From assembly GCF_021917145.1 (NCBI RefSeq), contig NC_061062.1, positions 6,229,847 to 6,293,846 on the forward strand: DNA of 64,000 nt. Reading direction: 5' to 3'. How positions within the stretch are numbered: the stretch's first letter is position 1; each line of letters opens with the position of its first letter. The position numbers were made by a program, and so were the translations under genes. The DNA is from Hypomesus transpacificus. Its lineage: Eukaryota > Chordata > Actinopteri > Osmeriformes > Osmeridae. Below, piece after piece: positions 3,100-51,109 of this stretch. The notes under the pieces are model-generated. The model was not told where the DNA came from. It ran no database searches and saw only the letters and a program-made list of their open reading frames with translations.

Positions 3100-5180
3100 G
3101 ATTCTAACCAATGGTGACGCATTCTAAACTTTTTCATTGTGATGTCATGAACCTCAGAAGTTTTGCAACATTAAGTTGTGCCAGCACTGTGTTTTACTGT
3201 CAGTTCAAAGAAGATTCAAGTGAATGTAGTTAATTTTTTGTTTAGCTACTAACGGTTTGTGATCATGATCAGGAAGATGGAGTTATTGAGGTGAGGACAA
3301 AGACATTAAGTGGCACAACTGAGAAATGTTCTATTAATAAGCATGTTTGCTTGAGGAGAAAGGTTTACATAACAATATGGCAGACCATTATGGACTTAAC
3401 ATAACAATAATAATGCATCTGTAAGACAGAAAACACATAAACAATAGAAGCCTAAAGCATAACATTTATACAAAATACGAATAAAAAAATATGTTTAAAA
3501 TAGTTATTGCCAAGGATTTGGGATGCAGACTCAATAGTAGGCTACAACTGACAGTAAAGGGGAAAAAATGTGCAGCAAGATTTAAAACATGTCATATGCT
3601 GTATGGTGCTGTAACAATAATGCTGTTCATAATTTTGCCAATAATGAGTTTAACAGTTATAGCCTGCTCTTCCACAGCAACTCACAATGCTGCTTACTGA
3701 CCAAGATTAACATTTTTTCATGCATCGATGTATTTAATATCAGTGACCTATTGTTCAGTGATAAAAGCATTATGTCCTGATGAATAAATAACTCCCTGAT
3801 GAACACTGAGACTGATGTAGAGACTGGAGCTAGCCAGAAACAAACAAAAACACAAACTGAAACAGATATATATTTTTTTTCAACGTGAGGTGGGCTTTTG
3901 TTAGACGTAAAGGGACGTGACGACAATAATCCATTATGGACGAAATATATTATTGTTGCTTGCTTTTTCCACAGGTAGCCTACTCTCTTGCAATTTTGAG
4001 GTTATTGCTGTTTAATTGTAACTTGTCTAACTACATGCTCTTTTTGTTCTTCCCTTTGGGACTTATTTGGTTGCACGTTGGCTTCATGTTTGACTTCCCG
4101 AAATGTTTGGGGCTCGCGTTGTTATGATCAGTGACCTAGGCACTTTTGTAAAACTATATCTTGGAAGTCGCTTTGTATAAAAGCGTCTGCTAAATGCATA
4201 AATGTAAATGTCATGGACGCGGCGGTCTGCATCCAACAGTCTAACCAATGGCGGCGCATTCTTAACTTTTGCATTATGACGTCATTGTTAATCTCAGAAG
4301 TTTTGTAACATTATGTTGTGCCAACACACACATTCTAATGTCATTTCAGAGAAGATTCAATTTATGTTATGTGACTTTTGCTACTAACGGTTTGTGATCA
4401 TGATCAGGAAGATGGAGGTATTGAGGTGAGGACAAAGATAAGAATTTCCTTCTAATACACATTTGCTTGGGGGGAATGGTTTACATAACTGCTGGGGGCG
4501 GGCCTGTGATGCTTTTACAGTATTGACATTTAACTATATAGCCTGTAACTGACAACTATCATATCAGCCGACATCTTCCCTCGGTATGCCTCGTCCATTG
4601 ATTTTATAGCTTGACTAGTTATCCCTTACTTCTCAGCGTGTGAAATATTTAACAGTTGTGTGAAATACAAGGTGTGAGAAATGACTGAAATGCGTGAGAG
4701 CAGTGGTATGGCAGACAGACCATGATGGAACTAACACAACACAAATAATGTATTCGTTAAAGACAGGAAAAAACAGAAACAAAAGAAGCCTAAATAAATA
4801 AATGTTACAAAATACGAATGAACAAATACGTTTTAAATAATTATTTGCTAAGGATTTGAGATGCAGACAAAATTGTAGGCAACGACTAACAACAAAAAAA
4901 TAAAATAAATGTGTAGCAAGATTATGACCATGTCATGGTGCTGTAACAATAATGCTGTTCATAATTTAGCGGCTAATGACTTGAATGTACCATTTATTAC
5001 TAAGGGGAGTTTATAATGCTCATTTAGCTTAGACATAAAGTTGATGCTGAAACCTTATTGCTGCTTCCTGTATCTTGACCTTTTAGTGTTTTATTTGTTA
5101 CAGAACAAAACATTTGATTTGGTATTGACTTTCCCTTGCCATGTGTGTCTTTACAGATGAGAGAAAAAATGAATTGAAAA
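3100..5180 (+). other. 5' region of the coiled-coil gene, with an internal duplication
   Basis: No coding sequence was found. A segment of roughly 0.55-0.75 kb occurs twice in the same direction, about 3105-3650 and about 4225-4985. Both copies share an ATGACGTCA/GTGATGTCA-type site, the GTTTGTGATCATGATCAGGAAGATGGAG stretch (named here only by its position near 3257 and 4390), and a GTGAGG donor-like sequence. These could be alternative first exons or promoters of the downstream gene. Between them (about 3740-4215) lies repeat-derived DNA ending in the fish SINE-type tail AAGCGTCTGCTAAATG. The right-arm counterpart of the second copy is at about 62760-63480. Confidence 0.55.
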
Positions 5181-8100
5181 ATGCCAAGGAAGATGTAAGT
5201 TCTTTCTTACAAAATATTTCTGAGATTTAGATTTTTGTTCTTAGACTTTAACAATCTTTTCTAGTTATGATGAAATATGAATCTACAATGGATATCATGT
5301 TGTCTAAGTTGTTGTGTGTATGTATGTGTGTTGAAACAGAGAGAAAGTAGCTCTCTACTCTGGAGAGTTACCCAAAGCTCTCTTTTGGAAGAGGGGGAGT
5401 CGAAAGTAAGTCCGCAGTAAAATACAGTTTATGCTGCAAGCCTAGTAGTTGTGAGGTCAGGGTTTGGAGGTCTGATGTGTTTTAGTTGATTTATTACAAG
5501 AATACATAATGTTCATTTGGATGATGTGTTCTTCCAAATTGTACATTGAGTGCAATAGACCTCTTAAGTATGTAGACCTCTATCTGCATGTCACCTGTGT
5601 ACAATAACACATGATGGATGTGTGTGTTTCCCTCCACAGGGATGATGAACCCTCCTCCTTCAGAGCACTCTCACCTGGACAGATTCCAGACATGAGGATG
5701 TTGAAGAACATACGGTAAGACAGGGTTGCCTCAACAGAATCGTAGGAAGGTCCGGGCGTCCAAATGACGGCTAAGTTTGGGGTTGAAGTTCGGGTTTAGA
5801 TGATATGATGGTTTTAAGGCAGGACAGAGACTAAATGCCAGTGTTTGGAAAGAGGTTAAAACACAATTGTGATGTCCGGTCTGTCGCGTTTGAATGTGAG
5901 TTGATAACCTGCTGCCTGTGATGTGTCCATGTTACTGCAGAGGGGAGAGGTTCTATCTTGGAACCATCACCCTGGGGCTCAGTGACTCTGAGAGTTCCTC
6001 CGACGAGAGCTCTTCCTTCTCGTCTCACCGACTTCCCTGTCAACTTCCTGTAGCCACAAGGGGGCATCCTCAAATGAACCAGTAAGTGTCCTCTTCACAA
6101 GACACGCACACTCTAAATGGTACAAAATGATTATGCATTAGACATGTTAGGAAGGATTGCTTGACATGTGGAGTGAACTACAAAGATATTGACCATGTTG
6201 TAATGGGACCATGTTGTCATTCAGCGGGAAGATAAAGGAGCTAGAACACCTGGTGGAGGATTTGAGGAAAACCATCCGGGAGCTTCAACTAAAAAATATT
6301 TCTCTGAGCAACTTGGTTGAGAAATTACAGCATGTTGAAACCAGGAAGAAGGCTGAGATAAAGAATCTCAAGATGGAGGTATGACAATGTTACGTACTAC
6401 TTCCTCAGCACATACCCAAAGTTATGCCCCAAAACAATGGTATTATTGTGTTCTAACATCAGTTGCAAGATTCTTTATGGTCGTAAACACAAAATAAAAA
6501 GTTGCTATAGGGACACAGAGACACCCAGAAGAGTTACCATGGGGACAAATCGGTGTCCCTATTCAGTTTTTATCATTTGTGAGTTCAATGTTTATAGAGG
6601 ACAGCATAGGCCACCTTGTGTATAGTGTTTCATTGACCTTTTATGCATGCAGGTGCAGACACTGAAAGAAGCAGCATGCGATGGTGCTTGCCATAGACGT
6701 CTGGACAGGAAGAGGGTAGAGAACAGTAGAGAGAGAGTGATCAAGAGAGGGGAAGAAAGAGAGATGTACAGTGATGAAATGTACACAGAGAGAAAGGTTG
6801 ATAAGCGAACAAAGCAGAATATTGACAAAAGGCAGATTGTGATGGACAGCTTGCGAGAAAAGGAGAACGAGACACGGAGGGAAGTGGAAGAACGGGACAA
6901 CATGAAGAGGCAGAGAGACAAACTGCAGTGTGAGATCAAGAAGCTGAAAAGTGAACTTCTAGAGATGAAAAGGGAGAAGGTCCAAGAAATATATGAGAAG
7001 GATAGAATAAAAGCAAGGCAAGATGAAGAAAAAAACACAACAGAGTCACAGTGCCGGGCAGGAAAAAGCAGAGAAGTGTTGGGAAGGGGAGAAATGGAGA
7101 GACGGATGAAAGAGCAATCATTAGAAAAACAAAGAAAGGATGAGACGCAGAGGGAGTTGGAAAGGAGAGAAGAAGAGCTGATGCAAAGAGAGGCTAGGAG
7201 ACAAAAGGAGAGACAAAAAGCTCTGGACACAGAAAGGGAAGCCCTAGAGGGAAGGGAAGAACTAGAGAGAGCGAGGGAGGATGCAAGACAAAAACAAGAT
7301 CATCAGAAGGAACTTGAAAGACAGAAGAAGTTAGACGGAAAGGCCAAACAGGAGATGGAGGGTGCAAGAGAAAAAGAAGCACTGAAAAAGGAAGTTGAAG
7401 AGATGCAGAGACAAGAGAAGGAGAGGGAGAGACAGAGAGAACTGGAAAGAGAGAGTGAGGCCGCGAGACAAAAAGAGGATCTTCGGAGGGAAATTGAAAG
7501 ACTTGAAGAGAAGGTAAGACAAAGAGACATTGAACGTCAACAAGAACAAGAGAGACAAGCGGAGGAGGAAAAGAGACAGAAAGAACTAGAAAGAGAGAGG
7601 GAGGACGCAAGACTAAAAGAGGAAATTCAGAAAGAACTAGAAAGACAGATCAAGTTTGACAGAAAGGCCAAACAGGAGATGGAGGGTGCAAGAGAAAAAG
7701 AAGCACTGACAAGTGAAGTTGAAGAGATGCAGAGACAAGAGAAGGAGAGGGAGAGACAGAGAGAACTGGAAAGAGAGAGTGAGGCCGCGAGACAAAAAGA
7801 GGATCTTCGGAGGGAAATTGAAAGACTTGAAGAGAAGGTGAGACAAAGAGACATTGAACGTCAACAAGAACAAGAGAGACAAGCGGAGGAGGAAAAGAGA
7901 CAGAAAGAACTAGAAAGAGAGAGGGAGGACGCAAGACAAAAAGAGGAAATTCAGAAAGAACTAGAAAGACAGATCAAGTTTGACAGAAAGGCCAAACAGG
8001 AGATGGAGGGTGCAAGAGAAAAAGAAGCACTGAAAAGGGAAGTTGAAGAGATGCAGAGACAAGAGAAGGAGAGGGAGAGACAGAGAGCACTGGAAAGAGA

Positions 8101-11100
8101 GAGTGAGGCCGCGAGACAAAAAGAGGATCTTCGGAGGGAAATTGAAAGACTTGAAGAGAAGGTGAGTCAAAGAGACATTGAACTTCAACAAGAAAAAGAG
8201 AGACAAGTGGAGGAGGAAAAGAGACGGAAAGAACTAGAAAGAGAGAGGGAGGACGCAAGACAAAAAGAGGAAATTCAGAAAGAACTAGAAAGACAGATCA
8301 AGTTTGACAGAAAGGCCAAACAGGAGATGGAGGGTGCAAGAGAAAAAGAAGCACTGAAAAGGGAATTTGAAGAGATGCAGAGACGAGAGAAGGAGAGGGA
8401 GAGACAGAGAGAACTGGAAAGAGAGAGTGAGGCCGCGAGACAAAAAGAGGATCTTCGGAGGGAATTTGAAGGACTTGAAGAGAAGGTGAGACAAAGAGAC
8501 ATTGAACGTCAACAAGAACAAGAGAGACAAGCGGAGGAGGAAAAGAGACAGAAAGAACTAGAAAGAGAGAGGGAGGACGCAAGACAAAAAGAGGAAATTC
8601 AGAAAGAACTAGAAAGACAGATCAAGTTTGACAGAAAGGCCAAACAGGAGATGGAGGGTGCAAGAGAAAAAGAAGCACTGAAAAGGGAATTTGAAGAGAT
8701 GCAGAGACGAGAGAAGGAGAGGGAGAGACAGAGAGAACTGGAAAGAGAGAGTGAGGCCGCGAGACAAAAAGAGGATCTTCGGAGGGAATTTGAAGGACTT
8801 GAAGAGAAGGTGAGACAAAGAGACATTGAACGACAACAAGAACAAGAGAGACAAGCGGAGGAGGAAAAGAGACAGAAAGAACTAGAAAGAGAGAGGGAGG
8901 ACGCAAGACAAAAAGAGGAAATTCAGAAAGAACTAGTAAGACAGAACAAGATTGGCAGAAAGGCCAAACAGGAGATGGAGGATGCAAAAGAAGCACTGAA
9001 AAGGGAAGTTGAAAGACTTGAACAGATAGAGAGACTGAAAGAGACTAAAAGACAGCAAGAACAGGAGAGACGAGAGAGGAAGATGAAGAGACAAAGAGAA
9101 TTAGAAAGAGAGAGGGAGGACGCAAGACAAAAAGAGGATATTCAGAAAGAACTAAAAAGACAGAACAAGTTTGACAGAAAGGCCAAACAGGAGATGGAGG
9201 ATGCAAAAGAAAAAGAAGCACTGAAAAGGGAAGTTGAAAGACTTGAACAGATAGAGAGACTGAAAGAGACTAAAAGACAGCAAGAACAGGAGAGACGAGA
9301 GAGGGAGATGAAGAGACAAAAAGAATTAGAAAGAGAGAGGGTGGTCGCAAGACAAAAAGAGGATCTTCGGAAGGAAATTGAAAGATTCGAAGAGAATGCA
9401 AGGAAAAGAGAGAGGGAAAGTCAAAAAGATAAAATTAGACTTGAAAAGGAGGAAGAGAGACATAAACAGATGGACAAAACGAGCGAGGAGACAAGAGAAA
9501 CAGAAGCACTGCAGAGGTACGTTGAAAGACAGAGAGAGACAGAAAGAGATTACAGACAGGAGAGACAAGAGGAAGAAGAAAGACAGAAAGAGATGGAGGC
9601 AACAAAACACAAAGAAGAGCATCAGAGGGACATTGAGAGATTTGACGGGCTTGCAAAACATCGAGAGATTGAGATGAAGGGAGAACAACTGACAGGGGAG
9701 AGGAAAGAGAAGGGACAAAAAGAAATGGAGAGCGCAGAGGAGGCCAGACAAGAAGAGGACCTGCAAAGGAAAGTTAAGAGACTGAAAGAGAATGAGAGAG
9801 AGCAAGAACAGGAGAGACAGGAGGAGGAAGGGAGACAGAAAGAACTAGAGAGAGAGAGGGAGGAGGAGAGACACAAAGCAAACATGCAGAGGGAACTTGA
9901 CAAAAAAGGAGAAAATCAAGAAGAGCAACAGACTGAAGCAGAGGACCACAGACTTGCCATGAAGACAGAGCAACAACAAGTGGTCACTGAGGAAAGAAGG
10001 GGTGAGGTTGGAGAAATGGATCAAATGGAGCAAGACAGTGAGCAGGAAAGGAAAAGGCTCGAGACGGAAAGCCAAGAGGAGGGAAGAAAAAGAGAGATGG
10101 AAATAAAAATGGAGGAGAGGAGGCAGAGAGAAGAGCATAGAAAAGCCATGGAGCTGAGATGGAGACAAAAAGGAGACAGGAGATGGAAAGAGAAAGAATT
10201 GAAGAGACAGAAAGAGCTTGAGAAAAAGTCAGAGGAAGAGGTCAAACAACATGAGGAGAAAGGAGACAAGGAGAAAGAGTGGATGGAGGCGGAAATGGAG
10301 AGACTAAAAGAGAGGGACAAAACCCAGTTGGCCAGGTTATATAAAATGAGAGAAAAAGCTGCAGATAACTTTTGGCTCCAAACAACATTGGACAAGCAAA
10401 TAGAGTTGGTTAAAGATAGGGAGAGAATTATGAGAGAGGATGCAAAAATGAAAGAATCAGAGAAGAGATGGGAGGAGGAGGAAAGACAACGGCAGGAATG
10501 CGGACAAGAGTCCGATGAGGCAAGACGACAGTGGCAGGAGAAGCATACACTAGCAGTCATGAGGAGAAAGGAGAAAGAGAATAGGAGAGCCATCGAGGAA
10601 AGGAGTCAGTACAGGAGAGAAGAGGAGCAAAGAATCAAAGAGATGGAACTAGAAATGAAAAGGCAAGAGAAACTCAAGGAGGAGAAAATAGCAGATACCA
10701 AGGAGGATTGCACAGTCGTAAAGAAGGACGATGCAGAAATGAAACGCAAAAGCAGAGAGAAGGTTAAGAATGCGTGGGGGCCAGAGAAGGAAGTGACAGA
10801 GAAGGAAGTGTCAGAGAAGGAAGTGACAGAAAAGGAAGTGACAGAGAAGGAAGGGTCAGAGAAGGAAGTGACAGAGACTGAAGAGTCAGATAAGGAAGAG
10901 TCAGAGACGGATGAGTCAGATAAGGCACAGTCAGAGACAAGTAAGAAATGTTTTTGTGATGTGAAAGTGTACTATATAATGATGTCAGAATGATTTAATT
11001 GAGACACTGTTGTAGGCTTGACAATCGTTATTCTGTGTGCTCTAAACCACGTTGAAGTATTTAATGCTTGTCTCTTGTAAACAGACAAGGAGAAGAAACG

Positions 11101-11254
11101 TGGTTTCTGGAGACAGTTCTGGCAGAAAGTAAAACCAAAAAAGAAGGCAACAAAAGAGGAAAAAAAAAGAGCCAGACTGGCTGAGATTGAAGCTTATGTG
11201 GAGAAACTGAACAAGGAGGCCGACCGTAACATAAAGGCCTTTGAGGATACGTAG
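5181..11254 (+). CDS. Long charged coiled-coil protein, trichohyalin-like in composition, function unknown
   Basis: I splice seven coding exons with consistent phases: 5181-5194, 5340-5405, 5640-5714, 5941-6081, 6225-6378, 6653-10940 and 11085-11254. They give 1635 residues. The start ATG at 5181 was chosen because it is the only upstream ATG whose frame passes through every splice. The N-terminus begins MPRKIEKVALYSGELPKALF and is followed by a Ser/Asp/Glu-rich stretch and a leucine-heptad segment in exon 5. Exon 6 is almost entirely Glu, Arg, Lys and Gln and holds about four tandem 108-residue (324-bp) repeats near 7650-8990, then EKEVT repeats near 10790-10900. The last exon is basic and aromatic (GFWRQFWQKVKPKKK). 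No signal peptide or enzyme motif is visible. It looks like a structural or scaffold coiled coil. I do not recognise an orthologue. Confidence 0.8.
7650..8996 (+). repeat. 324-bp coding tandem repeat, about four units
   Basis: Near-identical 324-bp units encode 108 residues each. Landmarks recur at that spacing: ATCAAGTTTGACAGAAAGGC begins near 7651, 7975, 8299 and 8623. The unit length is a multiple of three, so gain or loss of a unit keeps the frame. The inverted copy on the right has one more unit. Confidence 0.92.
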
Positions 11255-11261
11255 TCTACAC

Positions 11262-14200
11262 CTTCAGTTGGGGCCTCAGATCAGACATGGCGGCCGCCTG
11301 GAGGGAAATCTGAATTCTCCCTCTTTTTGTTGCTTTTTATAGAGAGACCCTGCGCCTGCCCTGTCGGCGACTCGCTACCTGGCTCTGTGTTTATGTTTTT
11401 ATGTTCCTCGTTTCTTGTTTTACTTAACTGTTTTAAGCTGTCACAGTGGTAGATGTGTGGTGAACTTCCAATTAGTAAAATGTTTGGTCAAAAAGTTTGC
11501 GCGCTTGGACTTTTCTTGTGGTTTTTCCTGTGGACGGAATTTGTTTGTGAGGCTGTGCGAGCCCAGGGGGTGGCTGCTCCGGCCGCGTCCACGTACACAT
11601 ACAGCCCGGATGAACTACGCAGCATTCGGGATGCTGCGGCGATCTGTACCCCCCCTCCCCTGGATCTACCCCCAGAGCTGAAGCGGAGGAAAAGAGGCCG
11701 ACGGAGCGGCATGCGGGTGAAAAACAGGTTGAGGAAATTTAAGCCTGTTCTACCATCGGTGATTATGGGTAACGTTCGCTCCCTAGCGAACAAAGTTGAT
11801 GAACTCGCAGGGCTTCTGAAATACGATCGGATGTTTCGGCAAAGCAGCCTGCTTTGTTTTATGGAGTCTTGGCTTAATGACACAATTCCTATGGATTACA
11901 CGGACATGGATGGCTTCACAATTATCCGACAGGATAGGGATCACGTCATGACAGGCAAGCGGACGGGAGGCGGAGTCTGCCTGTATGTGAATGAACAGTG
12001 GTGTCACTCTGGGCACATCACAATTAAGGAGAGAGTGTGCGACAAGAACATTGAATTGCTGGCGGTGAGTTGCAGGCCCTACTATCTTCCTCGCGAATTT
12101 TCCAATGTCATTGTTCTGGTTGTATACATCCCACCATCTGCAAATGCAAAACTTGCAAATGACACTATAGCCAGAGCTGCTCACAGTCTCTTAAGTCACA
12201 CTCCAGATGCTCTCATTACTATAAATGGTGATTTCAACCACTGCACCCTCTCCTCCACACTGCCATCCTTCAAGCAGTTTTTTTACATGTCCAACAAGGA
12301 ATCACAGGACTATCGATTTGTTTTATGCCAACATCAAAGACAGTTACACATCCACTGCTCTGCCACCACTTGGCAGCTCTGACCATAACCTAGTGCTGCT
12401 TTCAACCAAATACACCACACAGGCCCGAAAACAACCCACATCCACCAAATCAGTTCGTGTGTGGTCTACGGAGGCATGTGAAGAATTAAAGGCCTGCTTC
12501 GAAAGCACAGACTGGTCCGTGTTTAAGGACGAGGACAATTTTGATAGTTTTAACCGGATTGACAGTGTGGCTGATTGTGTTTCTGATTATATAAAGTTCT
12601 GTACTGACATGATCATCCCATGTAAAACCATCAAACTCTTCACAAACAACAAGCCGTGGGTCACTAAGGAAATAAAGAGTGCTATTAACAACAAAAAGGC
12701 TGCCTTCATGAGCAGAGATAGGGAAAAAATTAAATCAGCACAGAAACATCTTAAACAGGTCATAAGGCAGGGTAAGAGGGATTTTAAGGTAAAGGTGGAA
12801 AATAAACTTGAGGAGTGCGACACTAAAGGTCTATGGAGGGGCCTTAAGTCAATAACAGGTTATGGCACTGCCAGTTCTCACCTCAAGGAGGGTACTTTCA
12901 CACCGGATGAGGCCAACCAATTCTTTGCCCGGTTTGAAACCATGGACCTCCCAGCTGTGGACATGGCAACCCACTCCACCCTGGGGGAGTCGAGGGGTAG
13001 CCTCAGCCCCTGTCCCCCTATAACGGTCACAGTGGATGAAGTACGCTCACAGCTTTTAAGGCTCAATGTAAATAAGGCACCTGGTCCGGATGGGGTCATG
13101 CCACGAGTTTTAAAAGTATGTGCTGATCAGCTGTGTACAGTATTGCATTTTATATTTTCTTTGTCTCTGTCCCTGTCTAAAATTCCAGTTTCATGGAAAA
13201 CCTCATGTATTGTGCCCGTGCCTAAGAAACCTAACGCCAGAGCACTTAAAGACATGAGACCTATTGCCTTAACCTCTCACTTAATGAAATGTTTTGAAAG
13301 GACTGTACTAGGGCACTTAAAGAAGCAGGTCTGTGCCTTTCAGGACCCACTACAGTTTGCCTATAGAGAAGGGCTGGGTGTGGACGATGCCCTCCTCTAC
13401 CTGTTGCACAGAGTATACAGCCATCTGGAGCAAACCTATGCATCTGTACGAATAATGTTTTTTGATTTTTCTAGTGCTTTTAACACACTGCAGCCACATA
13501 TTTTAGCCAGCAAGCTTTTAAATTTTAACCTCAACAGCTCCACTGTTGCATGGGTCACAGACTACCTCACTAGTAGACCCCAGTTTGTACGGCTTCATGG
13601 TACTAGCTCTGGCATTATTACCACAAATACTGGGGCCCCACAAGGTACGGTTCTATCTCCGTTTTTATTTTCTATGTACACCTCTGATCACAGGCATAGC
13701 AGTGAACTTTGTCATTTACAAAAATTTTCGGATGACTCTGCCCTAGTTGGCTATATAACTAAAGATGCCAATACGGCTTACCAAACAGAAGTTGATAGCT
13801 TTGTCAGTTGGTGTGAGGATGCCCACCTGATTCTTAATATTGATAAGACGAAGGAGCTCATTATTGATTTTAGAAAGAAAAAAGCACAGGCAGCCCCCAT
13901 CCTCATTAGGGGACAGTCAGTTGAGGTGGTCCCCTCGTACAAATATCTTGGTGTACATCTGGACAGTACACTTGACTGGAAATTGAACACCAGTGTCATT
14001 TTTAAAAAGGCCCAGTCCAGATTGTTTTTTTTAAGGAAACTCAGGTCATTTGAAATCAGCAGATCACTTCTTAATGTTTTTTATCACGGTATTGTTGCAA
14101 GTGTCCTTTTTTATGCTGTTGTTTGTTGGGGTGGCAGCTTGACAGTAGAGGACAGGAACAGGGTCAACAAACTGATAAAAAAGGCAGGATCCATTATTGG

Positions 14201-14665
14201 TATGAGCCCTGATTCTCTGGAGGTCATCACGGAGCAGAGAACCAGGAGGAAGCTTAGGACTGTCCTGTCACATGACGACCACCCCCTGCACTGCACTTTT
14301 GTTAGAAGTGGAAGGAGCAAACGTCTCCTGTTACCAAAGTGCTCTACAGAGAGATTCAGGAGGTCTTTTGTTCCTGCAGCAGCTAGGCTTTTTAATCATG
14401 ACTGCTGATTTGATTTGATTTGATTGTATTACTGCACATTGCTCATTTGCACATCATAGTATTGTTATATTGTTATGTATTCCCTGTTTTAACCTTCTAT
14501 TTTTACTGTGGTAGTGGACCACACTCCCCCTGTGACTATGCTTGTTTTATGTTGTTACTGTATTCCTGTTTTGTATGTTGTACAGACTATGGTGGCAAAC
14601 CAGTTTCCCCATTGGGGATCAATAAAGTAAATCATCATCATCATCATCAATCAATCATCTCCACT
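11262..14665 (+). mobile_element. LINE, L2/CR1-like non-LTR retrotransposon, left copy
   Basis: Two overlapping ORFs (11453-12382 and 12225-14408) together match the single 984-aa ORF of the right copy. The first part is an AP-type endonuclease (Asn-Val-Arg-Ser-Leu-Ala, Glu-Ser-Trp-Leu, Gly-Gly-Gly-Val-Cys-Leu-Tyr, Asn-Gly-Asp-Phe-Asn). The second is a reverse transcriptase with FFDFSSAFNT, GAPQGTVLSPFLF and the catalytic box Phe-Ser-Asp-Asp, then a C-terminal YKYLGVHLD segment. A T-run at about 12279-12285 has one base more than the right copy and shifts the frame, so this copy cannot make the full protein. The 3' end has AATAAA-like sequence and an (ATC)n tail near 14630-14660. It sits 8 or more bp after the coiled-coil gene stop codon, apparently inside its 3' UTR. 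Confidence 0.85.
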
Positions 14666-15107
14666 ACATCTACCGGCTTTTCCTCAAACATGAACCTTAT
14701 CAACCTTGAACCAATGAACCTTAATAAAGTTGACATATTGACCACATGCTTCTACAGTGCAATGTTGATTCAAATAAAGATTTTAATTGATGCATGGCAA
14801 CATCAACAAACAACATCATCAACCGTTAACCTAAGCAAACCAACACTTCCTTCTTCAGGTACCATGAACTACCATGTGATGACACAGAAGGGGTTGGGGG
14901 TAGCTCAGTGCAAGACAGCCTGGAAGAAACCATGCTAACCACATTGTGGATGATCACCCTCTCCCTGAATGTGCTGATTTGGATTTAAAGCTGTGAAATG
15001 TTAGATTGTGTGTATGTAATGAGGAGATGGGTTGAACACTGAGTCAGCAGGGGGAGACAGACCTCAACTTTTGAAGATTGAGGATGTTGGTACTGAGGTG
15101 ACAGTTG
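14666..15107 (+). other. Probable 3' UTR end of the coiled-coil gene, then a V promoter region
   Basis: After the LINE tail the sequence has two AATAAA signals (about 14721 and 14777) that fit the displaced polyadenylation region of the coiled-coil gene. From about 14860 it becomes the upstream region of the family F gene and includes a tRNA A-box-like GGGGGTAGCTCAGTG near 14895. No ORF is supported. Confidence 0.5.
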
Positions 15108-15117
15108 TGATGTCACT
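15108..15117 (-). promoter_or_regulatory. V-beta promoter decamer (family F)
   Basis: TGATGTCACT, whose reverse complement AGTGACATCA fits the vertebrate V-beta promoter decamer AGTGAYRTCA exactly. It lies about 92 bp before the start codon of the family F gene and is kept in the right-arm copy. Confidence 0.7.
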
Positions 15118-15208
15118 CTGGTAGCCCCGCCCTCATCCTCTTCATGTACAGGACCATGCTGAATGCCAGCAGGTCATCAGGTCGTCACACAACAGAAGAC
15201 TGTTCACC

Positions 15209-15678
15209 ATGATCCTAGCCTTCATCCTCTGCTCTCTCTGTCTGCCCTGCATCAAGGGTGAGCAGCACAACATTTCAGAGAGAAAATATAAGTCATGGTT
15301 TTAGTTTTTCTCATCACCACTGTTTCTCTCCACAGGTTCCTCTGCCAGTCAGTCAGTTCAGCAGACCCCCTCTGCTCTGATCAAGAACCTGGGAGACTCT
15401 GTTGACAAAGAGTTCCTTTGTTCACACAGCGTTCAAAGCTATGATCGTATCCTCTGGTACAAACAACATTTAGATGGGGCTCTCCAGCTACTTGGTTATC
15501 TGAATCTTAATTCTCCATATCCAGAAGAAGATGTGAAAGGACAAATCAGCTTTGAGGGAGATGGGCGTAGCGAGTCAAAGCTCTCCATCTCCACACTCTC
15601 TCCAAGTGACGGAGCAGTGTATTTCTGTGCTGCTAGTCTGCACAGTGATGCACCCTCCCTCTCTCCTCTACAAAAACC
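15209..15678 (+). CDS. TRBV: TRBV family F (left), intact
   Basis: The leader exon 15209-15257 encodes MILAFILCSLCLPCIK, with a GTGAG donor. The V exon 15336-15640 is open: Gln-Gln-Thr-Pro start, first Cys in Phe-Leu-Cys-Ser-His, framework 2 Ile-Leu-Trp-Tyr-Lys-Gln, and a final Val-Tyr-Phe-Cys-Ala-Ala-Ser-Leu. The RSS has consensus heptamer CACAGTG (15641-15647), 22-bp spacer and ACAAAAACC (15670-15678). It would supply the V domain of a TCR beta chain. It lies downstream of TRBC in opposite orientation, so it can join only by inversion. Its inverted sister is at 51982-52451. Confidence 0.9.
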
Positions 15679-16024
15679 CTCCTGTGATAAGAGTGGTGAT
15701 CAGTGTGTGTGAGCAGCCAGTCTGAGGCTGGCTCCCTCTCTACACCTGGGGCTCACGTCTGCCAGCGAATCAGGAGCAGCACTTTGATCAACGCTCACAC
15801 ACCACCACACTGGTGATCTGCTGATAAAGGTCTGCGGTCTGACTTGTTCTGAGGACACACAGAGAAACAGCATCTAACCTGGTGGAGGAGGTGACAGGAC
15901 TGGAGGTGGAGATCAGGAGGGTTTTTTCAGAGTCACGTCATTTCCTCCCTCCAGAGAGAGAAGCACAGCTCAGTCATGTTTCTGGTCAGTTGCTGAGATG
16001 TGTTCAGCTCTGACATCCTCATCC

Positions 16025-16548
16025 ATGATCTCTCTTGTCATCCCAGTCTCTGTGTCGCTACTGTGGGCTGCAGGTACTTTCCAGGAACTGTTCTCTCTGC
16101 TACAGTGTGGAGAGATTCATTCTCAGGTCTAGCTGAGCTGGTGGACCTCAACGGTGGTTTATCAAGTCATCCTCATGTTCTGGTTTTGGTCTCTGTGTCT
16201 CCAGGTCTCTCTGAGGGGAGTGATGTCACCCAGACCCCCAGCATCCTCTGGTCAATCAAGGGGCAGCCTGCTGAGATGGACTGCAGTCACACCAAGGGTG
16301 CTACACACTACCAGATGTACTGGTACAGACAGCTACCAGGACAGGGGATGAAGCAGGTTGTGTACAGTGTGCCAAGCAGCAAGCCTGACTATGGAGAGTT
16401 CAGTGAAGTCAAATTCTCTGCAAACAAGACTGTAGCAGAGAGAGGTTCTTTCACAGTGAAGAACTCTTCACCAGAAGACAACGGCATGTACTTCTGTGCT
16501 GTTTATGAACACAGTGATACAGACATCATGTGCAGCTGCACAAAAACC
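16025..16548 (+). CDS. TRBV: TRBV family A (left), intact
   Basis: The leader exon 16025-16073 encodes MISLVIPVSVSLLWAA. The V exon 16205-16509 encodes a full V domain with Asp-Val-Thr-Gln-Thr-Pro, Met-Asp-Cys-Ser-His, Met-Tyr-Trp-Tyr-Arg-Gln and Met-Tyr-Phe-Cys-Ala-Val-Tyr-Glu. The RSS has heptamer CACAGTG at 16510-16516, a 23-bp spacer and ACAAAAACC at 16540-16548. The upstream ATG near 15976 is out of frame and was not used. Sisters are at 46606-47131 and 51110-51633. All features for function are present. Joining to D-J-C would need inversion. Confidence 0.9.
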
Positions 16549-16703
16549 CCCAGTGAGTTTTGATCTTCATTCAGAATGATGAACCATCTGATGATGTTTA
16601 TCCCCATCATGGACTGTAGGGGGCTCTCCAGTCCCATCAATCATCATGTCTCTAATGTTGCTGCTGTTCTTTTAAAACCTCAGACTTCTCCTGAAAGGTC
16701 CTG

Positions 16704-16713
16704 AGTGACGTCA
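16704..16713 (+). promoter_or_regulatory. V-beta promoter decamer (family B)
   Basis: AGTGACGTCA, an exact match to AGTGAYRTCA containing a full CRE core, 163 bp before the family B start codon. The same site precedes every other family B gene here. Confidence 0.75.
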
Positions 16714-16875
16714 TGTGAGATGACAGTGTGTTCTGCTGACACTCTCTCCATCCACCTCCTCTGGGCAGAGTCACTGTGACACAGCAGGGGGTGGGTGTAG
16801 CTCAGTGGTAGACAGCCTCCTCCCTGATTATCTGAGTGAAGCCTCACTGGTAGAGCTTCAGCAGACAGGAGCACC

Positions 16876-17345: not shown

Positions 17346-17655
17346 TCTCCCAGACTGTGCTGTCTGTGTGGTAGGACTCCTCCACACACCTGCATGAAGC
17401 AACCGTCACCAGCTTTGATCCAGGGCCAGAACTCTGCTCAGCTATGAGGAGAGGAGGAGCTTCCTGATGCAACACCACCTCAGATGATGCAGGCCTCTGT
17501 AGTGCTGCCCACCTCTTTCACTCACACACATACAGGAGCCTTGTCATGTGACCCCCCTCACACAGGGACCTGGTCATTTGACCTCCATGACAGCATCCTC
17601 ATTGCTGACAGTCTTCTTCCTCTGCACTCAGACTGTAAGCTGGGAGCCGACAACT

Positions 17656-18172
17656 ATGTTAGCGTGGCTGATTCTGTCTCTGCCAACACTGGGTAATGCT
17701 AAACTTGATTCTTCCACATCTTCTTGTGTTTATATTTACATTTAGTCATTTAGCAGACGCTCTTATCCATAGCAAGTTACAGTAAGTACAGGGACATTCC
17801 CCCCGAGGCAAGTAGGGTGAAGTGCCTTGCCCAAGGACACAACGTCATTTTGGCATGGCCGAGAATCGAACTGGCAAACTTAAGATTACTAGCCCGATTC
17901 CCTAACCGCTCATTCATCTGACTCCTTTTGTGTTAAATGTACAGTGTGCAACAATGTGGAAATGATTGTTTAGCAGCTTGGTTTGTTGGATCTTTGTTAG
18001 ATCTACAATATTGTTGTGTGATTCTGTCTGTGGTGCATTGGTTTTGAGTGCAGGCTTGTCCCTGAAGCAGCCCCCTGTGGTGGTGGTTGAGGAGAGGCAG
18101 CCTGTGAGACTCCTCTGTGACCAGGAGAACACCCCCAAATCTGTCTTGATCTGGTACCAGCAGAGGGGAAGG
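17656..18172 (+). pseudogene. TRBV: TRBV family G, first half only
   Basis: The leader exon 17656-17692 encodes MLAWLILSLPTL, with a GTAATG donor. After an intron holding a SINE, the first V exon (18054-18172) encodes Leu-Ser-Leu-Lys-Gln-Pro-Pro through Trp-Tyr-Gln-Gln-Arg-Gly and ends at a GTAAAG donor. The following intron matches that of the complete gene at 20304-21292 until about 18430, where it switches to unrelated sequence. The second V exon and RSS are missing. This is the broken edge of a tandem A-B-G duplication, so the gene cannot recombine. Confidence 0.85.
17733..17926 (-). mobile_element. tRNA-derived SINE in the family G leader intron
   Basis: Read on the minus strand, the element has an A-box-like start (AGCGGTTAGGG), a B-box-like GGTTCGATTC (here slightly decayed), and the common fish tail that on the plus strand reads CATTTAGCAGACGCTCTTATCC. 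The second family G gene carries the same element at the same place, so it inserted before the duplication. Confidence 0.8.
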
Positions 18173-18429
18173 TAAAGTCTCATCTCTCTCCAACAAGATC
18201 CATCTGAAGCATGTAGCTCTACTGTAAATCATGGCGTTCAATGAGCGTGCTTACATTTTGTATTTTATTCATTTAGCAGACTTTTTCATCTAAAGTGACA
18301 AACAAAGCACGTAGAAAATACAGCAGAGATTCAAGGATTAGAAGTGCTCTGTTCTAAGAATATTTGTGTGGGTAGAGTCAATGAATGGTCTGTATCTCAC
18401 CAGGCCCAGTACAAAAAGTGTGTGTTCTG

Positions 18430-18700
18430 TACAGTCTGATTCTCCGTTTTGGAAGAAACAGATACAGAAATGGCGTACGATAAATGTCTTTCTACATTTA
18501 CTTTACTTTTTGATGAATCATTTCCAATAAAGACGAAAAAAAACGCAGAAAACCATGGTTGACCCATGGCCTGCCTAAGTCGATTAAGACGAAAAACAAA
18601 CTTTGTGAAAAAACCCAACCCCCCTGACTGAGTACCTACAAAGTGTACAAGAACAAATAAATCATACATTAATAATTGCCAAAAAGAATGATTACCACAG
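18430..18700. other. Junction of the A-B-G tandem duplication
   Basis: About 270 bp of sequence unlike either parent gene lies between the truncated G gene and the leaderless A' exon. No ORF or known repeat was recognised. Confidence 0.5.
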
Positions 18701-19044
18701 CCACTCAGAGGGGGAGTGATGTCACCCAGACCCCCAGCATCCTCTGGTCGATCAAATGGCAGCCTGCTGACATGGACTGCAGTCACACAAAGGGTGTTAG
18801 GTACTACCAGATGTACTGGTACAGACAGTTACCAGGACAGGGGATGAAGCTGGTTGTGTTCAGTGTGCCCAGCAGCAAACCAGAGTATTCAGAGTACAGT
18901 GAAGTCAAATTCTCAATGGCAAGGACAATAGCAGAGAGAGATTCTTTCACAGTGAAGAACTCTTCACCACAACACAACAGCATGTACTTATGTGCTATGA
19001 GCAGACACAATAATACAGACTTCATGTGCAACTGGACAAAAAAA
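18700..19044 (+). pseudogene. TRBV: TRBV family A' orphan V exon
   Basis: A V exon of family A type (Ser-Asp-Val-Thr-Gln-Thr-Pro, Met-Asp-Cys-Ser-His, Trp-Tyr-Arg-Gln-Leu-Pro, Met-Tyr-Leu-Cys-Ala-Met) is open from about 18702 to the signal. No leader exon is found upstream, because similarity to family A begins within the V exon. The RSS heptamer has decayed to CACAATA (19006-19012), with a 23-bp spacer and an A-rich nonamer at 19036-19044. With no leader and no working heptamer it is a pseudogene, created at the breakpoint of the local duplication. Confidence 0.85.
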
Positions 19045-19527: not shown

Positions 19528-19997
19528 ATGATCATCCTGCTCATCAGCATATCCATTCATGCTGTCTGGGGTTCAGGTAAGTTTACATTCATGAGATGAT
19601 TCATTCCTTTGGCTACTCGTTATTTTTTTATTAAGGCAATAACATCTTGTCTTCTCTCATCTGCAGGTTTGTCTCTGAGTGATCAAGTTCACCAGACTCC
19701 TGCAGCCTTGATTAAGGACCTGGGAGATTCTACTGAACTAAACTGCAGACATGAAATACAGGATTTTGATTACATCTACTGGTACAAACAAACCAACACT
19801 AGACAACTAGTGTATCTGGGACACATGGTAGGGACAACTGAATTTACTGAATCTGGGTTCAAGATAACAGGAAGTGCAGACCAAGGCCAAACCTGCACAT
19901 TAACAATAGAGCAGCTCTCTTCAGACAGCAGTGCAGTGTATTTCTGTGCTGCTCGTCGCCACAGTGGTGTAAATCCCCTCTGTTCAATACAAAAACG
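19528..19997 (+). CDS. TRBV: TRBV family B' (left, second copy), intact
   Basis: The leader exon 19528-19576 is identical in protein to the first B copy (MIILLISISIHAVWGS). The V exon 19667-19959 is open: Val-His-Gln-Thr-Pro, Leu-Asn-Cys-Arg-His, Ile-Tyr-Trp-Tyr-Lys-Gln, Val-Tyr-Phe-Cys-Ala-Ala-Arg-Arg. RSS: CACAGTG 19960-19966, 22-bp spacer, ACAAAAACG 19989-19997. CDR1 and CDR2 differ from the first copy (Asp-Phe-Asp-Tyr and Gly-Thr-Thr-Glu-Phe), so the duplicates probably differ in binding. Confidence 0.9.
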
Positions 19998-20303
19998 TCT
20001 CCCAGACTGTGCTGTCTGTGTGGTAGGACTCCTCCACACACCTGCATGAAGCCACCGTCACCAGTTTTGATCCAGGGCCAGAACTCTGCTCAGCTATGAG
20101 GAGAGGAGGAGCTTCCTGATGCAACACCACATCAGATGATGCAGGCCTCTGTAGTGCTGCCCACCTCTTTCACTCACACACATACAGGAGACTTGTCATG
20201 TGACCCCCCTCACACAGGGACCTGGTCATGTGACCTCCATGACAGCATCCTCATTGCAGTCTTGTACCTCTGCACTCAGACTGTAAGCTGGGAGCCAACA
20301 ACT

Positions 20304-21292
20304 ATGTTAACGTGGCTGATCCTGTCTCTGCCAACACTGGGTAATGCTAACTTTGATTCTTCCGCATCTTCTTGTGTTTACATTTCATTTAGTCATTTAG
20401 CAGACGCTCTTATCCAGAGCGACTTACAGTAAGTACAGGGACATTCTCCCCGAGGCAAGTAGGGTGAAGTGCCTTTCCCAAGGACACAACATCATTTTGG
20501 CATGGCTGAGAATCAAACTGGCAACCTTAAGATTACTAGCTCGATTCCCTAACAGCTCAGCCATCTGACTCCTCTTGTGTTAAATGTATAGTGTGCAACA
20601 ATGTGGAAACGATTGTTTAGCAGCTTGGTTTGTTGGATCTTCGTTAGATCTACAATATAGTTGTGTGATTCTGTCAGTGGTGCATTGGTTTTGAGTGCAG
20701 GCTTGTCCCTGAAGCAGCCCCCTGTGGTGGTGGTTGAGGAGAGGCAACCTGTGAGACTCCCCTGTGACCAGGAGAACACCCCCAAATCTGTCATGATCTG
20801 GTACCAGCAGAGGGGAAGGTAAAGTCTAATCTCTCTCTCCAACAAGATCCATCTGAAGCATGCAGCTCTACTGTAAACCATGGAGTCCAATGAGCCTGCT
20901 TACATTTTGAATTTTACTCATTTAGCAGACTTTTTCATCCAAAGTGACAAACAAAGCATGTAGAAAATACAGCAGAGATTCAAGGATTAGAAGTGCTCTG
21001 TTCTAACAATATTTCTGTGGGTAGAGTCAATGAATGGTCTGTATCTCACCAGGCCCAGTACAAAAAGTGTGTGTTTTGATCTCCCAGCACCTTGCAGCTG
21101 CTGCTGTGGTCCTCTGGACAGAACGTGGAGGTGGAGGCCCAAGGTCTGATCCAGGGCTTCAGGGGGGACAGGAAGGGCTCCTCTCTGGCTCTGCACCTGG
21201 AGAAGTCTCAACTCTCTCACAGCGCTCTTTACTACTGTGCTGTCAAGTCTCTACACAGTGACAGATCCACACCTGCAGCCATGACAAAAACC
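20304..21292 (+). CDS. TRBV: TRBV family G', V domain split by an intron
   Basis: The leader exon 20304-20340 encodes MLTWLILSLPTL. The first V exon 20701-20818 encodes framework 1, CDR1 and framework 2 through Trp-Tyr-Gln-Gln-Arg-Gly and ends at an AAG|GTAAAG donor in phase 2. The second V exon begins at 21088 after CCCAG, restores the frame (Ser-Thr-Leu-Gln-Leu-Leu-Leu-Trp) and runs to Leu-Tyr-Tyr-Cys-Ala-Val-Lys-Ser. RSS: consensus CACAGTG 21254-21260, 23-bp spacer, ACAAAAACC 21284-21292. Reading across the 269-bp intron unspliced gives stops. Family H (21752-22258), which is related, has no such intron. Either splicing makes a normal chain from a split V gene, or the gene was broken by an insertion that resembles an intron. 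Confidence 0.78.
20377..20572 (-). mobile_element. tRNA-derived SINE in the family G' leader intron
   Basis: Same element, orientation and position as at 17733-17926, duplicated along with the G gene. The tail toward the leader exon carries CATTTAGCAGACGCTCTTATCC, and the tRNA-like head is at the far end. Confidence 0.8.
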
Positions 21293-21751
21293 TCCCACAG
21301 TCAGCCAACCAGAAAACTAACCAACTAACCACCCAACCAGCAAAGAGACAGACTACCAGGAAACCAACCAATCAGCCTCTAAGCCAGACAGCCAATCAGC
21401 TCACCAGCCAGTAAAACAACCAGCTAACCAGGAAACCAGCCTTTCAGGAAATCAACCAACTGGCCAATCAGACAGACAGCCTTTCAGGAATCCAGCCAAG
21501 AAACCAACGAACCTGCCAGCCAGAAACCAATAAGACAGCCAAGAAAACAGCCAGCCAACAAGCCAGCCAGGAAGCATTAACCCCGAGGAGGGGTTAGGCT
21601 CTGGGGGTGTGGTGTCTGTGGGTTGAGGCAGGGTGAGTGTTGAGGCATCCTCTAGGTGTTCCAGAGACCACAGCAGCATCACACAACTCCAGCAGTCAGT
21701 CTATCTGTGAGCTTGAACAACTAGTGTCTCTGAGAGGTAATCTCTCTGAAT
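21293..21751. repeat. CCA/ACC-rich degenerate repeat, then V promoter
   Basis: From about 21300 to 21570 the sequence is an irregular array of CCAACCA, CAGCCA and GAAACCA words with no coding frame. It merges into the upstream region of the family H gene. Confidence 0.7.
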
Positions 21752-22258
21752 ATGGCTCTGAAAATGGTTGCCATGTGCCTTCTTCTCCAGCTTCTGCCAC
21801 TAGGTAACTATACAGGCCGATTAAACTTCATAAACAAAATGAGTGTGTGGATGTGTGTTTGTTCCGGGTTCTGATGGAGAAAAGCAAACAGCTCAGGCTC
21901 TTAACCGGTAGTTCTGGAACATTCTTTGACTTAGGTTCTGGGGTGAAACAGCCCCCCGACGTGCTCGTGGCTGAGGGCCTGAATACGACCCTGCGCTGCT
22001 CCCAGATCAGCACCTCCTACAACAGCATGCTCTGGTACCTCCAGAGACACGGCCAGAAGCACCTCACTCTAATAGTCCACGCATACGTCAACATGGTGAC
22101 TGTGAGTGAGGGGTTGGAGGTCAGATACTCAGCCACACGACACGGGACTGCACTGGATCTCACTGTGACAACGGCCAACAGCTCAGTCACCGGGGTCTAC
22201 TTCTGTGTCAAACAGGAAGCACAGTGGTAGAGCTGAGGCAGACGCCTCAACAAAAACT
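21752..22258 (+). CDS. TRBV: TRBV family H, intact
   Basis: The leader exon 21752-21803 encodes MALKMVAMCLLLQLLPL. The V exon 21935-22219 is open, with Val-Lys-Gln-Pro-Pro, Leu-Arg-Cys-Ser, Met-Leu-Trp-Tyr-Leu-Gln, Leu-Asp-Leu-Thr and Val-Tyr-Phe-Cys-Val-Lys. RSS: CACAGTG 22220-22226, 23-bp spacer, ACAAAAACT 22250-22258. It shares the Lys-Gln-Pro-Pro start with family G but has an uninterrupted V exon. It is single-copy in this window and has no inverted sister in the right array. Confidence 0.88.
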
Positions 22259-27908: not shown

Positions 27909-28706
27909 TTAGTGTAGAACAGTCACCTGGAGCTTCCACACAAACACGACCACAAAGAACCCATACAGGCTGCTTTTAGCGATGAAGACGATGTACGCCA
28001 GTTTAGCTGTCTGAGTGCTCTTCACGTAGTTCTCTGTGGAAAACAACACACTTCCATAAGCCTTGACGGCAATGTGGGTTTCCAATGGCAGAGTCAAAGA
28101 TACAGTAGTCAGCATCTCACACAATTTGAGCTCGTTAAAAATACATGTATGAAACCTACCTGTTGTCATGCCTCCAGTTGACGGAGCTGTCAGAAACAAA
28201 TATTAGCCAACCTTAGATACAGTAACATTCACCATTAAATTACATTAAACATATCTACCACAATAACACACAAGACACAGTAGGCCTACCATTACATTCA
28301 GCCTTTAAATATATTTTGAGGATCTCAAGTCATTCGTTTAACGTACCTTTATCTCCCATAACAGACGCTGAAAAGGCTTTGTCTTCCGTACCATCAAAGA
28401 AGAGGACAGTACAGTTGAACTGATTGGTGTCTGTGTACCACTCTCCGGCAGGCACTCTCAAGCGGCTGGTGATGCTGTACCTCTCCGTTTCGTTGTCCCA
28501 CACGGCCGAGTTGTCCGTCCCCACTCCATCGGTCACGTTACGGTCACCGATCTTCCAGGACACGCTGACGTGATCCGGGTAGAAGCCGGTGGCCACGCAC
28601 ACCAGGGTCTTTTTGTTTTTGTTGTCTTTTGCATCCTTACACTCGTGTGTGGAGGGGGGCAGAACACTGACCTTCGGTGCGATGGCTATGTCTGATATTT
28701 TGGGAT
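27909..28706 (-). CDS. TRBC: T-cell receptor beta constant gene
   Basis: Exon 1 (28706-28347) encodes the Ig C domain. It runs from Asp-Pro-Lys-Ile-Ser and includes Val-Ser-Val-Leu-Pro-Pro, Leu-Val-Cys-Val-Ala-Thr-Gly-Phe-Tyr-Pro-Asp-His-Val, Ser-Trp-Lys, Ser-Arg-Leu-Arg-Val and Phe-Asn-Cys-Thr-Val. Exon 2 (28186-28160) is a 27-bp hinge. Exon 3 (28033-27909) encodes the connecting peptide and a transmembrane segment with Lys inside it (AYIVFIAKSSLYGFFVVVFV), the CD3-pairing feature of beta chains, then a short tail ending Val-Leu-His. All junctions are phase 1 and match the J donor phase. A further exon after Leu-Gln is possible because CAG|GTGACT resembles a donor. This is TRB rather than TRA or TRD. 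Confidence 0.93.
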
Positions 28707-28835
28707 CTGCAATGAGGGAATACACAATTCTCAACACTATATTTTCACATTGTTCTGTAGCCTAACGTCAAACATTTTCCGGCCAAATTGAAGGAGCATT
28801 AAAAAAGAATTCTAACAACATTTCAGATTTCTTAC

Positions 28836-31586: not shown

Positions 31587-31665
31587 GGTTTTTGTACGGC
31601 GGCTCAATAGGAATGTATCACCGTGGCCCCCTGTCCCCACGGTGTTAAACCATCACACAAAAACA
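31587..31665 (-). CDS. TRBD: TRBD segment with both RSSs
   Basis: On the minus strand: nonamer TGTTTTTGT (31665-31657), 12-bp spacer, heptamer CACCGTG (31644-31638), D core GGGACAGGGGGC (31637-31626), heptamer CACGGTG (31625-31619), 23-bp spacer (31618-31596), nonamer ACAAAAACC (31595-31587). The core is the 12-mer of mammalian TRBD1. The 12-signal faces V and the 23-signal faces J, as in all known TRB loci, giving V-D-J joining under the 12/23 rule. It lies about 350 bp before J1 and is the only D segment in the window. Confidence 0.95.
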
Positions 31666-34538: not shown

Positions 34539-35106
34539 TGTATTTGCATGGCTCCCAGTCTGCTTGGCAGCACTGTGACTGGCAGCACAGAGGTAGGTGC
34601 TGCTGTCATCCGGAGACAGCTCTGATATCCGCAGGGTGAAGCTGTTGCTGGACGTGTCGATAGAGGGCTGGAGGTGGCCCTCGGGAGTCTCGTACTCCTT
34701 GGTGAGGTACTCTATCGGAGCCCCGGAGCCAGCCTGGCGGTACCACAGCATGGTGTAGCTGCTCATGCTGAAGCCTGGACCCACGCTGCACTGCAGGGTC
34801 ACCTGGTCGGTCTGCCCAGCGTGGAGGACAAGGTCTGTGGGTGCCTGGAGGACCGTGGGGCCTGAACACTCACCTACACAACACCAGAGAAGAAGAAACA
34901 GCATTCAGGAGATCAGGTATGGAAAAACATTCTCGAATCTGTGAATGAAATATGATTTCAGCATTTCCAGTTTAGTATGCAGTACTGTGCATGCTCCAGT
35001 ACCAGTTGTGTTAATTGTTTTGTGTGGAAAAGTACCAGAACATTCCTTTCCTGCACTCACATGAGTAGATCAGAGTCAGAAGAACTCCCAGGACTGTGAC
35101 TAGCAT
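34539..35106 (-). CDS. TRBV: TRBV, Tyr-Leu-Cys-Ala-Ala-Ser type
   Basis: The leader exon 35106-35061 encodes MLVTVLGVLLTLIYS. The V exon 34873-34578 is open: Val-Leu-Gln-Ala-Pro, Leu-Gln-Cys-Ser, Met-Leu-Trp-Tyr-Arg-Gln, Leu-Arg-Ile-Ser, and Thr-Tyr-Leu-Cys-Ala-Ala-Ser. The heptamer CACAGTG (34577-34571) and 23-bp spacer are good. The nonamer is GCAAATACA (34547-34539), which departs from ACAAAAACC and overlaps an octamer ATGCAAAT. Recombination efficiency may be reduced. Single-copy here. Confidence 0.85.
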
Positions 35107-50638: not shown

Positions 50639-50956
50639 GGTGCTCCTGTCTGCTGAAGCTCTACCAGTGAGGCTTCATTCAGATAAGTAGAGACTTGTTC
50701 TGACCTGTTACTGCTGGAACACTGTTGTCTTTACTGGGACTGGCTTTGATTCTGTGTTGGTTTGTTGGATTGATACATGTGCAGGAAAGCACTTTGTAAC
50801 GGTTTCTTAAGTTCTGTTCACATGAAGTCTGCTTACTGACTGAGAGGGAGGAGGCTGTCTACCACTGAGCTACACCCACCCCCTGCTGTGTCACAGTGAC
50901 TCTGCCCAGAGGAGGTGGATGGAGGGAGTGTCAGCAGAACACACTGTCATCTCACA

Positions 50957-50966
50957 TGACGTCACT
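50957..50966 (-). promoter_or_regulatory. V-beta promoter decamer (family B, right second copy)
   Basis: Minus-strand AGTGACGTCA, 319 bp before the start codon at 50638. Confidence 0.72.
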
Positions 50967-51109
50967 CAGGACCTTTCAGGAGAAGTCTGAGGCAACAGCA
51001 ACATTAGAGACGTGAGGATTAATGGAACTAGAGAGCCCCCTACAGTCCATAATGGGGATAAACATCATCAGATGGTTCATCATTCTGAATTAAGATCAAA
51101 ACTCACTGG

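Follow-up and report, generated by a model that had tools for sequence, protein, structure and literature searches.

As a rule, the V exon of an immunoglobulin or T-cell receptor gene is in one piece, which annotation methods take for granted. In the 64,000-nucleotide stretch of Hypomesus transpacificus DNA analysed here (the window), one gene, designated G' and located at 20304-21292 on the plus strand, carries an intron inside its V domain. This raises the question of whether G' is a functional split V gene or a pseudogene. Our preferred answer, to which we assign a probability of about 0.8, is that G' is a germline TCR beta V gene of a bony fish, with its V domain in two exons and the intron between them spliced after RAG joining.

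Gene model and surrounding TCR beta locus

G' was read and translated over 19800-22000, and the resulting model matches that of the first-pass annotation to the base. It consists of the following parts.

20304-20340 (+), L-PART1 exon, 12 codons plus 1 nt, MLTWLILSLPTL; donor G/GTAATG
20341-20700 (+), leader intron, 360 bp
20701-20818 (+), first part of the V exon: leader end, FR1 (C23), CDR1 and FR2 up to the C-C' turn (W41, WYQQRG)
20819-21087 (+), intron within the V domain, 269 bp, phase 2, GTAAAG...CTCCCAG
21088-21253 (+), second part of the V exon: remaining FR2, CDR2, FR3 with YYC104 and the start of CDR3
21254-21292 (+), RSS with a 23-bp spacer, CACAGTG-23-ACAAAAACC, heptamer and nonamer both perfect

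Read unspliced, G' contains stops in all three frames. When 20818 is joined to 21088, the gene encodes GLSLKQ...WYQQRG/STLQLLL...YYCAVKSL, and only with 20819-21087 removed does it present a V domain containing C23, W41 and C104 (IMGT numbering). The spliced protein scores 45.5 bits against Pfam V-set (E 9.6e-12), whereas the first and second parts alone reach 16.9 and 22.7 bits; family H, described below, has an uninterrupted V domain that scores 38.3 bits. These data uphold the earlier claim that a normal V domain is obtained only by removing the 269-bp intron. The intron borders read AAG/GTAAAG at the donor and GATCTCCCAG/C at the acceptor, and 155 coding nucleotides precede the break, hence phase 2. 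Donor, acceptor and phase therefore fit as had been stated, with coordinates and phase re-derived from the sequence. The position assigned to the intron, between FR2 and CDR2, has to be corrected: the break follows W41-YQQRG and lies inside FR2, at the C-C' turn, ~8 residues ahead of CDR2. The second V part is a single open exon up to the RSS, which lies directly 3' of the V region and was rightly described as consensus. Exact consensus 23-RSSs of this kind number 12 in the window, where 0 are expected (100 shuffles). The rule for a TRBV gene, as worded in the part of PMC10464911 used here, is L-PART1 plus one uninterrupted V-EXON. G' departs from this two-exon IMGT arrangement in that its V-EXON is split.

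The gene is linked to TRBD, TRBJ and TRBC sequences, which lie on the other strand.

28330-28761 (-), ORF with a TRBC immunoglobulin domain (C1-set, 56.6 bits)
31626-31637 (-), D segment with 12- and 23-RSS (RSS scan, mismatches allowed)
31245, 30681, 29922 and 29177 (-), J segments (RSS plus FGxG scan, mismatches allowed)

The best 60 of 5719 PDB matches to the C domain are mostly TCR beta chains, the top one being an entry labelled UrIg2 V-C1-C2-C3. The best 60 of 5321 PDB matches to the V sequence of G' are a mixture of TCR alpha, TCR beta and Ig light chains, so the "beta" label of G' rests on the locus. The D segment reads GGGACAGGGGGC, which we take to be identical to human TRBD1. Minus-strand V genes, at 33-52 kb, stand in normal order relative to D-J-C; plus-strand V genes, including G', lie 3' of C in the opposite orientation. 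V(D)J recombination needs the RSS only. An intron within the V domain should be no hindrance to it, since the intron lies upstream of the RSS and would be removed from the RNA. RAG would join the RSS 3' of the second V part to a D-J unit, and joining would proceed by inversion, the D-J-C cluster being ~7-10 kb away on the other strand. As described in the passages of PMC10464911 and PMC8656973 used here, mammals have a V gene that lies on the 3' side of the D-J-C clusters and joins by inversion, and catfish V genes too are located 3' of D-J-C. The rearranged G' transcript would lose the leader intron, the J-C intron and the introns within C, plus the 269-bp FR2 intron. The product would be an ordinary V-beta domain encoded by two exons.

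The D-J-C cluster is flanked by an inverted duplication (3910-16825 versus 50845-63805) with two main blocks that are 97-98% identical; shorter blocks pair 0.3-2.8 kb with 47.5-49.7 kb. Both arms carry V genes, a LINE and a long repetitive ORF, and the duplication may be genuine or in part an assembly artefact. Non-LTR retrotransposon-like frames (endonuclease plus reverse transcriptase, judged by eye) occur at 11453-14408 (+) and 53262-56216 (-), the right copy as one 984-aa frame and the left copy split into 309 + 727 aa. An ORF of 1455 aa at 6626-10993 (+) contains E/R/K-rich, coiled-coil-like repeats at ~324 bp spacing, and its counterpart at ~56677-61098 (-) is broken into several frames.

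The splice pair and the other V genes of the window

The 20819/21087 pair was compared with other ways of joining the two V parts, using an HMM trained on 25 other V exons of the window. Combining 16 donors with 17 acceptors (GT/GC-AG) yields 16 combinations that are open and in-frame. Among these, 20819/21087 scores highest at 51.5 bits; the 15 alternatives range from 19.1 to 40.8 bits and were rejected. Joining 20819 to 21162 or 21171 also gives an in-frame domain, one that lacks CDR2. When the GT-AG rule is dropped, the score of the 20819/21087 join is equalled or surpassed by 32 of 555 open deletions (best 56.3). All of the 15 such deletions that were listed lengthen FR2 by one or two residues, indicating that the spliced FR2 of G' is ~1 residue shorter than the window HMM prefers, at the turn that holds the intron. 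The same scan includes 5 GT-AG pairs, of which 20819/21087 is again the best, followed by one at 29.8 bits. The spacings of the spliced domain, 11 for C23-W41 and 55 for W41-C104, fall within the range of the other V's (11-14 and 51-62), taken from the 24 of 27 that could be measured by script; a value of 16 for V-33284 reflects the picking of an earlier cysteine.

The splice signals themselves were scored, the donors against a consensus of nine positions. The V-intron donor matches at 7 of 9 positions and the leader donor of G' at 5 of 9. Pyrimidines make up 73% of the acceptor tract in the V intron and 53% in the leader intron. A 7/9 match is reached by 2 of the 36 GTs in 20701-21249. Of 48 AGs scored, one has a richer pyrimidine tract than the V-intron acceptor and two others equal it. 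The splice signals of the V intron fit but are not exceptional.

The window was scanned in six frames with one HMM for each half of the V domain (first-half cutoff > 20 bits). Of the 31 first halves found, 29 lie no more than 40 bases from a second half. Copies with a stop or frameshift are among these 29 contiguous V's. Of all 31, G' alone has a displaced second half; a paralogue, G (first half at 18068), has none within 600 bases. The half-domain HMMs were trained on 25 of the 29 contiguous V's, with G and G' outside the training set, and therefore favour contiguous V's. The two genes with which G' is best compared are the following.

17629-18430 (+), paralogue G, incomplete: leader, first V part and the intron to ~position 260 of 269
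21955-22215 (+), V domain of family H, uninterrupted

The segment 17548-18426, containing G, is 94% identical to 20200-21075, containing G'. Because G carries the intron too, the intron predates the duplication that gave rise to the pair. G has no second V part and no RSS; from ~18430 onward it continues into unrelated sequence, and it is a dead fragment. The replacing sequence, 18430-18703, is without other copy in the window except for a 20-base match (E 0.13). Between G and G' there are 5 differences in 155 coding positions and 35 in 615 intronic ones (Fisher p = 0.31), so that their comparison gives no evidence for or against coding constraint. Family H had been called a related family that has no intron. 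It is indeed uninterrupted and is the nearest V of the window to G' by BLAST score, yet at 32% amino acid identity it is barely closer than three others at 31-32%. As an ordinary teleost TRBV, it shares with G' a leader exon and intron, C23, W41 and C104, and a 23-RSS; the difference is that its V exon is in one piece, like that of 29 of the window's 31 V's, whereas the V exon of G' is split.

Retroposon sequence in the intron, and how the intron and gene may be read

The introns of G' contain the following retroposon-derived features.

20912-20965 (-), diverged UnaL2-type LINE/SINE 3' tail in the V intron (Rfam, 27.3 bits, whole model length)
20933-21064 (-), retroposon body in the V intron, intron positions 115-246
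20387-20440 (-), retroposon with a UnaL2 3' tail in the leader intron, reverse-oriented (64.9 bits)

The tail in the V intron corresponds to the SINE-tail-like sequence that the first-pass annotation placed near 20915-20950, which is thus identified as an UnaL2 3' element, at a score below the Rfam gathering score of 55 (E 0.0028, with the intron alone searched). The corresponding match in the intron of G reaches 21.7 bits (E 0.081). Judging from its lower score, the V-intron copy looks older than the one in the leader intron. The body aligns with the window at 37369-37240 (-), where 98 of 136 columns are identical and 0 of 500 shuffles do as well; over the 126 ungapped columns there are 28 differences between the two copies, ~22%. 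An Rfam search of the second copy (37200-37468) gave no match up to E 1; the alignment to this copy begins inside the tail. We read these matches as a reverse-oriented retroposon fragment that occupies roughly 20895-21064, ~60% of the V intron.

The UnaL2 tail is the 3' end of such elements. In G', this end faces the donor and lies ~75-95 nt inside the intron; the ~75-95 nt between donor and tail consequently lie outside the element. The 82 nt beside the donor show no similarity to the flank of the other copy or to the G' exons (143, 332 and 67 of 500 shuffles reach the scores). It follows from the gap and this lack of similarity that the element did not bring the donor. The acceptor-side end of the intron has no match to the other retroposon copy (254 of 500 shuffles reach the score). 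An origin of the intron by segmental duplication of an exon piece was rejected as well, the intron ends being without similarity to exons 2 and 3 (67-435 of 500 shuffles reach the scores).

The proposal in the first-pass annotation that the inserted retroposon itself became the intron therefore finds no support at the donor, which stands ~75-95 nt beyond the 3' end of the element rather than within it or at its edge. That the element fills ~60% of the intron and that 29 of the 31 V's of the window are contiguous would suit such an intronisation, and the acceptor end could sit in an element that extends further than the 37.2-37.4 kb copy. With 82 donor-side nt that match neither the flank of that copy nor the exons, and an acceptor-side end that finds no counterpart in it, we regard creation of the intron by the insertion as unlikely. 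The alternatives are that the element landed in an existing intron or that an insertion into the exon made use of a pre-existing donor, and we prefer the first. An older short intron in this V family, with 82 + 23 nt outside the element (~105 nt in all) and the retroposon inserted later, would explain why the recognisable element sits away from both splice sites. The residual 105 nt has the usual length of a V-gene leader intron; the axolotl medians given in the part of PMC9911811 used here are 97 bp for IGHV and 115 bp for IGLV. The leader intron of G' likewise took an insertion. With the right-hand limit of the element uncertain, we put this account just short of an even chance; it is no less probable than that the element created the intron. 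The broader suggestion that the family gained its intron is parsimonious, given 29 contiguous V's out of 31, although the event can be neither dated nor polarised from the window alone.

Other introns in immunoglobulin-type and fish genes offer partial parallels. The half-domain hypothesis, as presented in the passages of PMC7916673 used here, sees in mid-domain introns an argument for descent from a half domain, and the G' intron does lie near the middle of the V domain, at the edge of the half ABCC'. Unlike the Ig domains discussed there, G' shows no sign of an ancestral intron, and half-domain ancestry is improbable given that the surrounding V exons are unbroken. For melanocortin receptors of fish, the sections of PMC3151243 used here describe novel introns in exons that are normally continuous, with a proto-splice site MAG/R. 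G' resembles them as a ray-finned-fish gene with an intron in a usually unbroken exon and with MAG (AAG) at the site; it belongs to another gene family, and the base after its site is C, not R. For NITR genes, the portion of PMC2442602 used here does not mention V-domain introns.

The rival that competes with the two-exon explanation is a pseudogene, in which a retroposon-bearing insertion disrupted the V exon, the GT and AG at its borders are a fortuitous fit and the gene is unused; the accounts of the intron's origin, and orthology to the salmonid gene discussed below, are compatible with two exons. The 94% identical paralogue G is dead through loss of its second half, G and G' differ without detectable constraint, the interval contains retroposon sequence and joins without GT-AG can outscore 20819/21087, all as expected of a pseudogene. 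Yet both V parts of G' are open, C23, W41 and YYC104 are kept and the RSS is consensus. Moreover, homology is interrupted at a GT-AG pair of compatible phase, whose donor is better than that of the leader, and the retroposon stops short of that donor. Neutral decay of the joined frame was simulated with 6000 runs per divergence and indels assumed at 0.06 per substitution. At divergences of 0.03, 0.06, 0.10, 0.14, 0.20 and 0.25, the frame stays open in 36.6, 13.9, 4.3, 1.6, 0.13 and 0.03% of runs with indels and in 65, 44, 28, 19, 11 and 8% without them. The outcome depends on the divergence, for which 0.10 and 0.14 were estimated by halving the ~22% difference between the two retroposon copies. 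At these values, an open frame after long decay is an unlikely but possible result with indels (4.3% and 1.6%). The argument is weak, because 28% and 19% of frames stay open when indels are omitted; the simulation favours use of G' and is no proof of it.

Taken together, the spliced score, the best-scoring pair, the splice signals, the spacings, the RSS, the linked D, J and C segments and the salmonid precedent speak for a two-exon V gene, while the short FR2, the ordinary character of the splice signals, the missing constraint signal and the broken state of the only close paralogue in the window speak against it. We consider the pseudogene distinctly unlikely. On the sequence evidence, G' is a real, well-formed split V gene and probably functional, and we infer that its splicing and rearrangement take place.

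The salmonid TRBV6 precedent

A split V structure has already been published. According to the passages of PMC10464911 used here, TRBV6 of five salmonids has four exons, with two introns within the V-EXON, and each genome contains one functional copy for which rearranged transcripts are known. The copies are named TRB1V6-1 and TRB1V6-2, the split gene being present in salmon and trout. Its authors first found a TRBV6 pseudogene only and needed a published protein sequence to find the split gene. The first-pass annotation had stated that rearranging V segments almost always have an uninterrupted V exon. As a statement of rarity this holds in the window, where 29 of 31 V's are contiguous, but it overlooks the expressed salmonid gene. 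Beyond TRBV6, no split rearranging V exon was found in the parts consulted of the open literature, including PMC8656973, PMC13149839 and PMC12529555, a body of work to which subscription journals mostly do not belong; the passages used of PMC13113880, PMC8559430 and PMC9911811 describe no rearranging V exon split by an intron. On this comparison, G' is an uncommon variant, not a new kind of gene.

G' and TRBV6 are alike in being rearranging teleost TRBV genes with an interrupted V-EXON, TRBV6 having one functional, expressed copy. They differ in intron number, with two V-EXON introns and four exons in TRBV6 and one V-EXON intron in G'. They also differ in their loops: the text of PMC10464911 used here gives a CDR1 of 9 residues and a CDR2 of 3 for TRBV6, whereas the CDR1 of G' has 6 residues (C23-W41 spacing 11). 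The CDR2 of G' is 3-7 residues long by hand count, depending on the alignment. Exon lengths computed from the Atlantic salmon coordinates in a legend of the same paper are 57, 159, 168 and 54, summing to 438; 438 is long for a V gene and two of the ranges run backwards, which makes these lengths unsuited to a comparison of intron phase. CDR1 length and intron number suggest that G' belongs to a different V family from TRBV6.

Orthology to TRBV6 would account for the shared type of locus, the interrupted V-EXON and the occurrence of one intact and one defective copy, as in rainbow trout TRBV6. The two introns, 9-residue CDR1 and 3-residue CDR2 of the salmonid gene are difficult to reconcile with the single intron and 6-residue CDR1 of G'. 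In addition, another V of the window (RSS at 34577, minus strand) has a 9-residue CDR1 and a very short CDR2 and is unsplit, which hints, by CDR length only, that the TRBV6-like gene of this fish is without an intron and that G' is a separate case. We therefore think orthology quite improbable. The other V, at 34578-34904 (-), has a poor RSS nonamer (3 mismatches) and an unsplit V exon. The idea that it lacks a leader intron was rejected, a good acceptor being present and its ATG probably being intron sequence.

If G' does stand apart, it may represent a second, independent split V exon. An intron, associated with an UnaL2-tailed retroposon, would have arisen at the C-C' turn in a V-beta family that has no relation to TRBV6, and the gene would have stayed in use. 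We hold this reading tentatively and regard it as somewhat doubtful. If it is true, V segments are able to take up introns more than once and still serve in V(D)J recombination. The existence of another family with a split V would imply that intron gain can happen inside rearranging segments and that counts of split V segments in fish loci are too low.
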